Below the pieces are notes generated by a model, which saw nothing but the letters and a program-made list of their open reading frames with translations, had not been told where the DNA came from and made no database searches. DNA of 64,000 bases from Thermoplasmata archaeon. Its GTDB lineage: Archaea > Thermoplasmatota > Thermoplasmata > Thermoplasmatales > Thermoplasmataceae. The translations under genes were made by a program, and so were the position numbers. The DNA lies in the NCBI GenBank assembly GCA_021797555.1, contig JAJZZM010000001.1, forward strand, positions 166,874 through 230,873, given 5' to 3'. Positions 6,152 through 11,439 of the stretch are shown one piece after another (position 1 is the first letter of the stretch; each line of letters opens with the position of its first letter).

Positions 6152-6234
6152 TTATTTTTTTGTTTTTTCCTATAATTCCGATATGATATAACGATTATAA
6201 TAAAATTTATAATCTAATTTAATATGTATACTTG

Positions 6235-6867
6235 ATGCCGATATATGAAAATGACGAACACGAATATTTAAATGCGAAAGTAAAGAAGCTTGAAAATAAC
6301 TCATTTGTAAATGGTGTTTTATTCCTTACAGAGAAAAGGATAATTTTTGAAAAAAATGGTAAAAGAACCCTTATAAGGGCCTCTCCAGCAGTAACAGAAG
6401 TTAATGTTTATTTATATAATGTTGAAAATTCAACATTTGCGATGCCTAAATTTCCATTATTCACAAAAAAAATATTCAGTTTTGAGTATTATGATGATAA
6501 TAATAAGTTACAGAGAATTGATTTTGCAATGAAGGATCCCAAAACATGGGTAACCCAGATTACCAGATTGGCTTCTCTGGCAAAGAAGGAGGAAGCCACC
6601 AAAAATGAAAAAGAGAAAATAGAGGAAAAAAGAAGAGAAATTGAAATGGCAAAGGCAAGGGCACCTAAGGCAAACATAGGCATGGCAATCTTTGGTGATA
6701 ATAAAAACAAAAACAAAAATCCATATGATAATTTAAAGGAGAATATAATAGATGATAATACTAACGGGAATTTCCCTGCAAAAAATACCTTTAACTGCCC
6801 TAACTGTGGTTTTGAGGTTGATAACACCATGATGTACTGCCCTAACTGTGGATATAAATTAAAATAG
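6235..6867 (+). CDS. PH/GRAM-like domain protein with C-terminal zinc ribbon
   Basis: I chose the ATG at 6235; a TTG directly before it (6232) is the other option. Residues about 1-125 form a beta-rich domain with the pattern of bacterial/archaeal PH or GRAM-like domains (NGVLFLTEKRIIFEKNGKRTLI). A charged, probably helical linker (EEATKNEKEKIEEKRREIEMAKAR) follows. The last 22 residues are a zinc ribbon with two knuckles, CPNCGFEV and CPNCGYKL. Such proteins are common, uncharacterised archaeal cytosolic proteins. Its stop codon abuts the stop of the convergent gene with no spacer (6867/6868). Function unknown. Confidence 0.75.
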   Translation: MPIYENDEHEYLNAKVKKLENNSFVNGVLFLTEKRIIFEKNGKRTLIRASPAVTEVNVYLYNVENSTFAMPKFPLFTKKIFSFEYYDDNNKLQRIDFAMKDPKTWVTQITRLASLAKKEEATKNEKEKIEEKRREIEMAKARAPKANIGMAIFGDNKNKNKNPYDNLKENIIDDNTNGNFPAKNTFNCPNCGFEVDNTMMYCPNCGYKLK

Positions 6868-7749
6868 TTATTTCTCAATTAGCTCATTAATGCTTTTATT
6901 AACTTTATTCCATAGATAACTTTTCTTTTCAAGATATTTTATTTCCTTTTCTGTGAATTTTAATTTTGGAATTTTTTCCGGTATGTTATATATTTCATAA
7001 TCCTTCAGTATTAATGATTCTATTATGCTTTCTACAACAATGATATAATTATTTTTACCGTATCTATATGGCCTATTTTTTGATGCTTTGCTTAATAAAT
7101 ACGCGAGTATAATTGAAAAATATGAAGCATGTTTCAAAATAAAAGCGTCATTTAAACCATAATTGCATGATATTATTGCGTCACGCTCGTTAATAATATT
7201 ATTAATAAATGTTTTTTTATTCTGCCTATAATTTAAGATACCGTAGATATCTGCCGGGTAAGCCACAAAACCTGACATACGCGATAACCTTACAAATAAA
7301 TCAATGTCTTCATATTCCCGGAGGTTCCTCCAGCCACCGGACCTTTTTAATAAATCACGGTTTATTATTAAAACGGTATAGAGAAAAGCCTTTTTTTCTC
7401 CTTTTTTTATAAAATTATATATTATGTCGGATATGGAAATATTATATGAAATATTAGGATCAAAAACCACAATATAATCGCCGGTGCTTTTTAAATATGC
7501 TATTTGCTTGCCTGCACCATAACTTTTAAAATTATCGTAAATAAATTTAACATTGTTTTTATTTAAATCTATTTTAAAATTTGCTGATATTATTATTTCA
7601 TAGTCTATGCCTATCTCCTCTGCTATATTTATAATATTGTCTATATTATGGTTTAGATTCTCTTGATTTTCCATGAGAGTAGCGCAGAATGATATTTTTA
7701 GCTTATTTTCGGTATATAAACTTACATTTTTTATATTATACAGCTCCAT
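6868..7749 (-). CDS. Family 2-like glycosyltransferase with altered DxD
   Basis: The ATG at 7749 is preferred to a TTG two codons upstream. The 293-residue product has a GT-A fold outline: NKLKISFCATLMENQENL at the start, then GAGKQIAYLKSTGDYIVVFDPN, where family 2 enzymes usually have DADxx, and GGWRNLREYEDIDLFVRLSR, the usual ED acceptor-site region. There is no long membrane segment after it. The change of the DxD to FDPN means metal-dependent catalysis is uncertain. It lies near the GtrA-like protein (5354-6151), so both may belong to cell-surface glycan assembly. Target sugar unknown. Confidence 0.65.
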   Translation of the reverse strand: MELYNIKNVSLYTENKLKISFCATLMENQENLNHNIDNIINIAEEIGIDYEIIISANFKIDLNKNNVKFIYDNFKSYGAGKQIAYLKSTGDYIVVFDPNISYNISISDIIYNFIKKGEKKAFLYTVLIINRDLLKRSGGWRNLREYEDIDLFVRLSRMSGFVAYPADIYGILNYRQNKKTFINNIINERDAIISCNYGLNDAFILKHASYFSIILAYLLSKASKNRPYRYGKNNYIIVVESIIESLILKDYEIYNIPEKIPKLKFTEKEIKYLEKKSYLWNKVNKSINELIEK

Positions 7750-7887
7750 ATACAATAATGTAATATTTTTATTGAATTAAAGCTTATTGATTTTATTCTA
7801 TATAATTTATTACTAAAATTCTTTTAAAAATTAAATTTTTTTATTGTTAAACATCAGAAATTTTACAGTATGAATAATGTAAATAAC

Positions 7888-7924: not shown

Positions 7925-8338
7925 ATGACCCTGATAGTTATAGGCATATTGCACCATTATAATTCTGATATAAAGGATAAACGTGCATCAGAGAATTATA
8001 TAAACATCTCAAAAAAAATATTGCAAATGTATAGCATGCATACCGGTTGCATAGTGTCCGGAAAAATATCTGAAATAAACCCTGCGGTTGATAGCGATAA
8101 GCTGACAGAAGTTGCAATGCCGGATTTGAATATTATGAATGGATTAAAGGTAAACCTTATTTATTTTGAGGGGGAGGGTGAAAAGGATTATCTGTTTCTC
8201 TCAAAAATTTTGTGGTCCAAACTTGTTGGCTTCGCAATATTTCCAGAGGAATACGAATTAAAAATTGAATTAAACCTTGTTGCCTGTGGATGGAAAAAAG
8301 TAAAACTGTTCAGCAAAGGAACTGTAATAGATAAGTAG
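7925..8338 (+). CDS. Uncharacterised 137-aa protein, upstream partner of Vps4-like ATPase
   Basis: I do not recognise the family. The protein begins MTLIVIGILHHYNSD, has a central mixed helix/strand region (NIMNGLKVNLIYFEGEGEKDYLFLSKILW) and ends with a strand-rich tail (LNLVACGWKKVKLFSKGTVIDK). No signal peptide or long membrane helix; one mildly hydrophobic N-terminus. It stops 8 nt before the AAA ATPase gene and is read from the same promoter, so it is probably translated together with that ATPase and may be a cofactor or cargo of the ESCRT-like system. Codon use matches the neighbours. Confidence 0.7.
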   Translation: MTLIVIGILHHYNSDIKDKRASENYINISKKILQMYSMHTGCIVSGKISEINPAVDSDKLTEVAMPDLNIMNGLKVNLIYFEGEGEKDYLFLSKILWSKLVGFAIFPEEYELKIELNLVACGWKKVKLFSKGTVIDK

Positions 8339-8346
8339 GTATTAAT

Positions 8347-9444
8347 ATGGATGACCAGAAAATAAATGAAATAAATAATTTACTTGAAAACGCAATAAAA
8401 AATGAATCGGAGGGCAAAAGAAAGGAGGCTTCAGATTTATATATGCTTACGTATAAAAAATTAATTGAACTTGCTAAAAATTCACATGGAAAATTAAAAA
8501 ATGAAAGATTAAACCAGGCAGATATCATATTAAAAACATATAAATCATTAAACGGTGATAATAATGATGGTGATAAAATTTCTCAGGGAAAAAAAATTCT
8601 TGAAACATTAAATATTGAAGAGCCGGAAATACCCAAAGTTACATTTAATGATGTTGCAGGCCTTGAAAATGTTAAAAATGAGATAATGTCAAAAATAATA
8701 TATCCAATGAGGTATAAGGAATTATCAAAAGAATATAATATAGAATTTGGTGGCGGAATGCTTTTATACGGTCCCCCTGGAACAGGGAAAACATTTATTG
8801 TCAAGGCAATAGCCAATGAAGTAAAAGCCAACTTTATAAATGTAAATCCCTCTTCTTTGTATAGCCAGTGGTTTGGCCAGTTTGAAAAGAACATTTCATT
8901 ATTATTTAAAGCTGCATATTTATTATCGCCATCAATAATATTTTTTGATGAAATTGATACTTTAGTTCCTAAAAGGTCCGGGTCGGAATCGGATGCGGCC
9001 AAAAGGGGTGTATCACAGCTATTAACTGAGGTTGGAGGCTTAACCTCAGAGAAGGATAAAAATATATTCATTATAGCCGCAACAAATAATCCGTGGGAAG
9101 TTGATGAGGCAGTAATGAGGCCTGGAAGATTTGATGTTAAAATATATGTTCCACCACCTGATTATGAATCCAGGAAAAAATTATTTGAATTGAAATTATC
9201 AAAAATAAAACATGTAGACAATATAGATTACGATAAACTTTCAAGAACCACAGAAAGGTATTCAGGTGCAGATATAGAATTTATATGCAAAAAAGCAGTC
9301 CAGAATGTTTTTATGGAGGTTGTAAAATCAGGGACTAAAAGGGATATAACCACGGATGACATAATAAATGTTATTTCACAGATAAAGCCATCAATAGACG
9401 AGGCAATGCTGAGGAGGTATCAGAGCTATATTATGGATATGTGA
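8347..9444 (+). CDS. Vps4/CdvC-like AAA ATPase with N-terminal MIT-like domain
   Basis: A 365-residue AAA ATPase of the Vps4/katanin/spastin clade. Residues about 1-70 form an MIT-like three-helix bundle (INNLLENAIKNESEGKRKEA...), which in Vps4 binds ESCRT-III tails. Walker A GPPGTGKT is at 142-149, Walker B IIFFDE at 197-202, and sensor ATNN at 245-248. The first pore loop SSLYSQWFGQFEKN has the aromatic W175-F176 pair used to thread substrate. The final helix KPSIDEAMLRRYQSYI resembles the C-terminal helix of Vps4/katanin. Proteasome-type and Cdc48 features (double ring, coiled coil) are absent. The next gene downstream encodes an ESCRT-III-like protein, supporting a role in remodelling ESCRT-III filaments. 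Confidence 0.85.
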   Translation: MDDQKINEINNLLENAIKNESEGKRKEASDLYMLTYKKLIELAKNSHGKLKNERLNQADIILKTYKSLNGDNNDGDKISQGKKILETLNIEEPEIPKVTFNDVAGLENVKNEIMSKIIYPMRYKELSKEYNIEFGGGMLLYGPPGTGKTFIVKAIANEVKANFINVNPSSLYSQWFGQFEKNISLLFKAAYLLSPSIIFFDEIDTLVPKRSGSESDAAKRGVSQLLTEVGGLTSEKDKNIFIIAATNNPWEVDEAVMRPGRFDVKIYVPPPDYESRKKLFELKLSKIKHVDNIDYDKLSRTTERYSGADIEFICKKAVQNVFMEVVKSGTKRDITTDDIINVISQIKPSIDEAMLRRYQSYIMDM

Positions 9445-9824
9445 TGGCCTGAGTTCAACATCAGCAATATAATCCATGGCATGGTAGTATTTGTTCCATC
9501 AATGAATGGATCTATGTGGCTTAATAAAATAGTCAGAACAATGTTAGAAAGTTTATAGATTATGGATATTATTTTATGGAGCTATATAAAGAAGTTTGGG
9601 TGGTGATTCCAAACCGAGGTATGGCGCAATGCCTCCAATTAAAATAGTCCGGGAAATTTTATCTGGATTATCAAAGGGAAATATAATTATTAATTGATCT
9701 TCAATTGTTACTTTAATATTTATCTGAAAATAGCCTGATTTTTAGCTTTTTGTTATAAAATAATAAGTATATATGGGAACTCATTTCAGAATATACGTAA
9801 AGTTTATAAATATAATATTGTTAT
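9445..9824. other. 380-nt spacer with broken ORF fragments
   Basis: No intact gene. Two short open stretches are visible on the plus strand: about 35 codons at roughly 9451-9558 and about 31 codons at roughly 9602-9697 (GDSKPRYGAMPPIKIVRE at its start). They lie in different frames, without good starts, and could be debris of an old gene, possibly a transposase. The last 30 nt hold the promoter of the Snf7-like gene: TTTATAAAT at 9803-9811. Confidence 0.4.
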
Positions 9825-10442
9825 ATGCCTATGGCAGTTTTCAAATTCGGCAAAAGTGAAGATGAAAAGATTCTTGAAAAAAGATCAAGAATAAGCATGG
9901 ATAAATCAAATATTGATAGAACTATAAGGCAATATGAAAGATTAAAACTTAAAAGTATCGAAGATGCAAAACTTGCACTAAATGATAAAAATATGAGAAA
10001 AGCCAGATTATTTGCATCGTTTATAGCCTCGCTTGAATCTTCAATAAATGGATTAAAGGACTATAAGCTATTGCTTGAAAGTGTTGATTTAAATTTACAG
10101 TATTCAAAAACGCAGAAAGATATATGGTCTGGATTAAAACAGAGTTCACAGGACCTTGTCGGCAATCAGCTGAGTGAAAAACAGATAGCAGAAATATCAC
10201 AGAGCATAGATTCTATAGTTGATGCACAGGAAAGAATACAGGATACTTTAGGAGATCAATTAGATTCAATAAAGGATGCAGTGGATCGCAGTTCAGAGAT
10301 AAATGAAACATCAAGGGACAAAGTTTTAAAAGAATTAGAAGAAGAAAAAGAGGATAATAAAACCACAGAAATATCGGATGAGGACAAACGCCTTAATGAA
10401 TTAATAAAAGAGATAAATAAGGAAAAGGAAGGAGAAAAATAA
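9825..10442 (+). CDS. Snf7/CdvB-like (ESCRT-III-type) coiled-coil protein
   Basis: A 205-residue, almost wholly helical protein with a basic N-terminal half and acidic C-terminal half, the charge split of ESCRT-III subunits. Residues about 25-105 form a long helical hairpin (IRQYERLKLKSIEDAKLAL, then RKARLFASFIASLESSIN) like the Snf7 core. The C-terminal DEDKRLNELIK (185-195) resembles part of the MIM1 motif (R-L-x-x-L) that binds MIT domains, though the usual upstream Leu is missing. It lies 380 nt after the MIT-bearing AAA ATPase. A TATA box at 9803-9811 is 18 nt before the first ATG but 24 before the second (9831), so translation may start at 9831. ESCRT-III assignment is inferred from pattern, not from a search. 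Confidence 0.65.
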   Translation: MPMAVFKFGKSEDEKILEKRSRISMDKSNIDRTIRQYERLKLKSIEDAKLALNDKNMRKARLFASFIASLESSINGLKDYKLLLESVDLNLQYSKTQKDIWSGLKQSSQDLVGNQLSEKQIAEISQSIDSIVDAQERIQDTLGDQLDSIKDAVDRSSEINETSRDKVLKELEEEKEDNKTTEISDEDKRLNELIKEINKEKEGEK

Positions 10443-10641: not shown

Positions 10642-11439
10642 ATGAACATTGATGAAAAATTAAATAAATATATGAAATCCAATTCCGGGGAAATAAAAAA
10701 TTATATTTTCTCCATATTGCTGGCAAGAGAGTACAATTTACCTGAAACTGCATATAAAAATAGAAATATAGATTTATATAATAATATCATGGAATCGGGA
10801 ATAATCAATGACAATGATGTAATAGAAAATTATATAGGAACTATGTTAATGAATAAAAAAGATGAAATAAATAATATAATGAATAATTACCCTGATGAAT
10901 TTAATTACATTGTTTTAACCGGGTCTTCAGGATATGTAACAATGTCATCATTTCTTGGCATACAGTTATCATCCGGAATAATTTTTGATGAAGAATATAT
11001 ATCTAAAATTCTAAAAATAGGTAAAAATAAACTGGATATATATTCAGACATAATATCATTTTTGCCTGAAATAGTATGGAATTACTTCACAAAATTTATA
11101 AAAACCGGCATAGGCCATATATATTATGGATCTTACAGTTCAACAATTTTATTGCCTTTTAGGGAAATGGTAAACCTGAATTTCATAAAAAAAATAAAAA
11201 TAAATGATTATTTCGAGGATTTGTTTGTTATATACAATAAATTAGGTACACATAGTATAAATGAAATAAAAAAATTACTGAATAATCCTGAAAATATAAA
11301 CATTGTAACAACTGAATTAAAAAATGAGGATATTTTATCAATAGATAATGACAATATTGTTATAAAAAATAATGAAGAATTCAATAAAATAAAGGAATTG
11401 AAAAAAATAGAATATGCTAAAAAACTTTTAAACATATAA
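10642..11439 (+). CDS. Uncharacterised 265-aa protein
   Basis: I do not recognise the family. The product is mostly helical, rich in Asn, Lys and Ile, with no signal peptide. Its centre is more hydrophobic (FNYIVLTGSSGYVTMSSFLG, about 92-111, and an amphipathic region near 140-180), while the C-terminus (about 200-265) is strongly charged. No Cys or His pattern and no nucleotide-binding motif. Codon use equals that of its neighbours, so a long-term resident gene. It follows the ESCRT-like region and precedes the lys operon, but spacing on both sides (about 200 nt) suggests its own transcript. Confidence 0.65.
   Translation: MNIDEKLNKYMKSNSGEIKNYIFSILLAREYNLPETAYKNRNIDLYNNIMESGIINDNDVIENYIGTMLMNKKDEINNIMNNYPDEFNYIVLTGSSGYVTMSSFLGIQLSSGIIFDEEYISKILKIGKNKLDIYSDIISFLPEIVWNYFTKFIKTGIGHIYYGSYSSTILLPFREMVNLNFIKKIKINDYFEDLFVIYNKLGTHSINEIKKLLNNPENINIVTTELKNEDILSIDNDNIVIKNNEEFNKIKELKKIEYAKKLLNI

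Follow-up and report, generated by a model that had tools for sequence, protein, structure and literature searches.

A minimal ESCRT system of Thermoplasmata has already been published by Makarova et al. (2024, mBio; PMC10936438), whose main text covers Acidiplasma, Ferroplasma, and Thermoplasma and names arCOG07400 as the third component. Among wall-less acidophiles that must divide without FtsZ, the minimal ESCRT is the foremost candidate for the divider in Ferroplasma and Acidiplasma; it cannot explain Picrophilus. Here we examined a window of 64,000 nucleotides (the whole stretch of DNA analyzed) from a host genome of 1.94 Mb that is 99.6% complete. A first-pass annotation had proposed that this DNA encodes a three-part minimal ESCRT-like module and had regarded the 137-amino-acid partner as its new element. 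The first proposal proved to be the right reading, given that the Snf7 similarity is significant and that the genes are neighbors in related genomes. The second is not upheld: the three-gene system is real but was already described, and it shares with the one of Makarova et al. (PMC10936438) its Vps4, ESCRT-III, and arCOG07400 beta-barrel proteins, the organism group, and the fact that Ferroplasma and Acidiplasma lack FtsZ, with no essential difference between the two. We put at about 85% the probability that the locus encodes an ESCRT system of the published type that acts in membrane fission.

The three open reading frames were all recovered where they had been annotated (Table 1), and the distance of 8 nt between the gene for the 137-amino-acid protein (P137) and the ATPase gene that follows was borne out. 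The frame of the 205-amino-acid protein is indeed present from position 9825, but the alignment of its relatives places the conserved start at the second ATG, at 9831. Because this ESCRT-III gene begins approximately 380 nt downstream of vps4, tight coupling in the window is limited to P137 and vps4. A scan for Sigma-70 promoters and terminators performed at chance level, its model being ill-suited to archaea.

Table 1. Positions of the genes for the predicted ESCRT components and the P137 paralog in the window.
Feature	Position	Strand	Description	Basis
P137	7925..8338	+	small beta-barrel protein (predicted)	24 genomes adjacent to vps4, AlphaFold model, published family
Vps4/CdvC-type AAA ATPase	8347..9444	+	MIT-like front, residues ~5-75; Walker A GPPGTGKT; Walker B FFDEID	
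ESCRT-III (Snf7-family)	9831..10442	+		Pfam Snf7, CHMP3 match, alignment, tail statistics
P130	31737..32129	+	P137 paralog family	P137 profile match, profile-profile comparison, distribution, AlphaFold model

Against Pfam Snf7, the 205-amino-acid protein reaches 32.7 bits, above the gathering cutoff of 27.3, and 18 of 22 family members match the same model at E up to 0.001. Moreover, the family profile (A2) matches the structure of CHMP3 (E 6.9e-7) and also Vps24 and, weakly, CdvB. That this protein might instead be an ordinary coiled coil that does not share the descent of Snf7 would fit its helical, charged character and the finding that the window sequence, used as a lone query, matched no ESCRT-III structure; set against the significant Snf7 similarity and the family-wide matches, we consider this explanation highly improbable. 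Near the C terminus resides the MIM1-like tail DKRLNELIKEI. A tail of this kind, roughly [DE]xxLxx(L/I)(L/I)xx(I/L), is found in 20 of the 22 relatives, compared with a mean of 0.17 in shuffled tails. The strict MIM1 pattern occurs in none of the tested relatives, wherein a hydrophobic residue replaces its arginine. The description of a Snf7-like protein with a partial MIM1 motif is thereby sustained. There is hardly room for doubt about the ESCRT identity of the module.

The ATPase has a single AAA domain (Pfam AAA, 4e-41) with both Walker motifs and the arginine finger region present. Its match to the NCBIfam CdvC equivalog extends over residues 14 to 361 and reaches 228 bits, well below the curated cutoff of 650; the protein is therefore not a crenarchaeal CdvC ortholog, and we file it as a Thermoplasmata Vps4 rather than as CdvC. 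Taken alone, the MIT-like front of the window protein is sub-threshold (14.4 bits versus the Pfam MIT cutoff of 30). Among 17 relatives of the ATPase, 14 match Pfam MIT (PF04212) at E up to 1, the best at 5.9e-9, and the profile of the front matches the MIT structures of Vps4B and calpain-7. Sequence comparison at the family level thus indicates that the first 85 residues have the character of an MIT domain, in agreement with the annotation of a Vps4-type ATPase with an MIT-like front. The genome from which the window derives encodes a single Vps4 and a Cdc48. Two genomes of the same genus encode, close to the locus, a second Vps4-like ATPase of 419 to 422 amino acids that is approximately 42 to 49% identical to the window copy and absent from the window's genome (L073:9514-10782, minus strand; L069:2178-3437, plus strand).

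The remaining protein, P137, had been regarded as the new element that could not be placed in any family. However, it almost certainly corresponds to arCOG07400, the third component in Makarova et al. 2024. Relatives with 22 to 87% identity are encoded in 24 of the 117 genomes of the order that were surveyed, and they share the start M-T/S-L-I-V; this distribution and the conserved start establish that P137 is a real gene. Its AlphaFold model (pLDDT 90, pTM 0.85) has a barrel-like arrangement of strands and no long coiled coil. Neither a Pfam search with P137 nor a Foldseek comparison of the model with solved structures gave a significant match. When P137 was considered along with its paralog P130 (see below), again no solved structure was matched at E up to 0.001, and the best hints, among them PG0164 (2d9r) and archaeal riboflavin kinase (5trd), were not significant. 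We also considered that P137 might be a tandem-duplicated AbrB-like or double-psi barrel, an idea that came from two strand-helix-strand units judged by eye, and rejected it because the halves fail to align (hhalign E 0.06, 11 columns). After the Acidiplasma aeolicum locus (L064) and two Thermoplasma-type loci (L077 and L078) were set beside the published description of the barrel, gene context and the predicted fold indicate that P137 is almost certainly the arCOG07400 barrel protein.

Gene order was compared across genomes, and the components proved to be neighbors. The vps4 gene adjoins P137 in all 24 P137-bearing genomes, often with the two genes overlapping, and the ESCRT-III gene resides within approximately 10 kb of this pair in 18 of them. 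In Acidiplasma aeolicum (L064), the P137, vps4, and ESCRT-III genes have the same order as in the window. P137 could nevertheless be a mere neighbor that is held in place by chance or co-expression and is not an ESCRT component. In favor of this, profile searches detected Vps4 without P137 in approximately 17 further genomes of the family, where Vps4 is accompanied by Snf7, and P130 is encoded away from any Vps4. We judge this explanation unlikely, as the P137-vps4 adjacency is without exception and spans several genera in which the surrounding genes differ. The approximately 17 genomes do signify that Vps4 can do without the barrel, which marks a subset of these systems. A direct partnership of P137 with Vps4 or ESCRT-III is probable. 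The partner role is placed through gene linkage only, and the likeliest assignment is that of a putative cofactor of fission.

Other genes accompany the locus. A 211-amino-acid protein (window 6232-6867, plus strand) combines a weak GRAM/PH-like N terminus (E 0.05) with a zinc ribbon at the C terminus; in the closest relatives and in Acidiplasma aeolicum, its gene likewise stays close to P137. The combination of PH domain and zinc ribbon recalls Vps36-type ESCRT parts, although the PH match is not significant. The gene for a 295-amino-acid protein without a Pfam match (window 6868-7755, minus strand), which by eye resembles a family 2 glycosyltransferase, is divergent from P137 in the loci of the Ferroplasma group and of Acidiplasma aeolicum. 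A 265-amino-acid orphan encoded downstream of ESCRT-III (window 10642-11439, plus strand) matches nothing significantly in Pfam or NCBIfam, and none of the related loci that were compared showed a relative of it.

For comparisons among groups of genomes, g2 is the Acidiplasma group and includes the named Acidiplasma aeolicum contig (L064). We provisionally take g1 to be Ferroplasma, g13 Picrophilus, and g15 Thermoplasma, in line with their fit to published gene patterns.

In six genomes, the window ESCRT-III protein had no match, and Pfam Snf7 gave nothing convincing. We entertained the idea that Ferroplasma had lost ESCRT-III and rejected it for five of the six (the sixth is G062), which encode, in the vicinity of the locus, an ESCRT-III-like protein that has diverged (L065:4394-5086, minus strand, with relatives in L066 to L069; hhalign probability 92%) and that Pfam Snf7 fails to recognize. 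Relative to the window, the same five Ferroplasma-group genomes have a Vps4 that is 72 to 75% identical and a P137 that is just 31 to 36% identical. P137 and ESCRT-III therefore changed together, whereas Vps4 did not, which suggests that these two proteins may act together in some of the Ferroplasma group. Horizontal replacement of P137 in some Ferroplasma was considered and set aside, the trees having long branches and not being decisive. A separate case is G064 (L073, G064:C13), which the EF-2 tree places among the diverged Ferroplasma-group genomes and whose P137 is of the window type (69% identical). Either the locus was transferred or the contig was mis-binned; the assembly is 84% complete with 5% contamination.

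Searching the family with the P137 profile also recovered P130 and two weak matches. In the window, P130 starts 32 nt after a helicase-like gene. Profile-profile comparison shows that P130 and P137 are homologous (hhalign probability 99.7%), and the two form separate clades in a tree. The AlphaFold model of P130 (pLDDT 87) has its main strands and helices in the same order as the P137 model.

The distribution of P130 was determined in 77 genomes of the taxonomic family. None of the 15 genomes of the Ferroplasma, Acidiplasma, and Picrophilus groups has FtsZ or SepF, and P130 is present in 14 of these (Ferroplasma 10/10, Acidiplasma 2/3, Picrophilus 2/2) but in none of the 62 FtsZ-bearing genomes; weak matches elsewhere to the P130 search are the P137 genes themselves. 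The sole FtsZ-less genome without P130 is G043, a 97% complete draft in which no remnant was seen at the site occupied by P130 in its relative G042. In an EF-2 tree that took in 14 of the 15 FtsZ-less genomes, these constitute one clade (support 100/100). The association between P130 and FtsZ loss thus counts as one event, and for this reason we dropped phyletic correlation as a statistic. Both Picrophilus-group genomes carry P130, beside a gene annotated by eye as ScpB-like, whereas P137 and Vps4 were not detected in either, one of the two genomes being 59% complete.

The split between P137 and P130 is not mentioned in the main text of Makarova et al. 2024 (PMC10936438), and the finding of P130 as a family confined to the FtsZ-less clade adds modestly to the published system. 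A speculative scenario, to which we assign a low likelihood, is that the arCOG07400 family split such that P137 was kept with Vps4 and ESCRT-III, while P130 arose or was retained in the one lineage to have lost FtsZ and SepF and, within it, outlasted P137 and Vps4 in the Picrophilus group. P130 would then be a core part of a division apparatus that is independent of FtsZ and, in that group, also of ESCRT. P130 is a concrete candidate gene for the question of FtsZ-less division, with an association that represents a single evolutionary event.

By analogy with known ESCRT systems, the ESCRT-III protein would polymerize on the cytoplasmic side of the membrane, using its basic hairpin and the short segment at its N terminus, and the MIT domain of Vps4 would dock on the MIM1-like tail. 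Vps4 could then extract subunits with ATP and thereby constrict and recycle the polymer, after which the membrane neck would be cut. The barrel protein, presumably co-produced with Vps4, might be a partner that provides nucleation or regulation, in the position held by CdvA in Sulfolobus.

Since the genome lacks FtsZ and SepF, cell division is the likeliest use of the module, and we lean slightly toward this as its main role. The main rival is vesicle release: the module may serve extracellular vesicles or membrane repair, with division accomplished by other means, such as an actin homolog or P130. ESCRT makes vesicles in Sulfolobales, and the two Picrophilus-group genomes, without FtsZ and Vps4, imply that another divider exists in the same clade. 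The first-pass annotation mentioned Vps4 and Snf7 relatives alongside FtsZ, which is true of Thermoplasma-type genomes and not of the window's genome; because the former keep the complete FtsZ machinery beside the module, division is not its sole possible job. On the other hand, Vps4 and P137 are kept in all 13 genomes examined from the Ferroplasma and Acidiplasma groups, which have neither FtsZ nor SepF. We therefore regard the vesicle or repair explanation as less probable than division, though a serious competitor to it.

Two further systems provide useful comparisons. Like the Cdv system of Sulfolobales (CdvA, CdvB, and CdvC), the module combines ESCRT-III and Vps4 without protein-sorting components. 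It differs in that the barrel protein takes the place of CdvA, of which it is a positional counterpart with none of those defining parts (PRC domain, coiled coil, and ESCRT-III-binding tail) that could be tested, and in that the tail motif is MIM1-like, whereas most CdvB proteins carry MIM2 according to the main text of Makarova et al. (PMC10936438). With the eukaryotic ESCRT-III and Vps4 proteins (CHMP3 and VPS4B), it shares the Snf7 domain, the MIT domain, and an MIM1-like tail, and it departs from them in the hydrophobic residue that stands in place of the strict MIM1 arginine.
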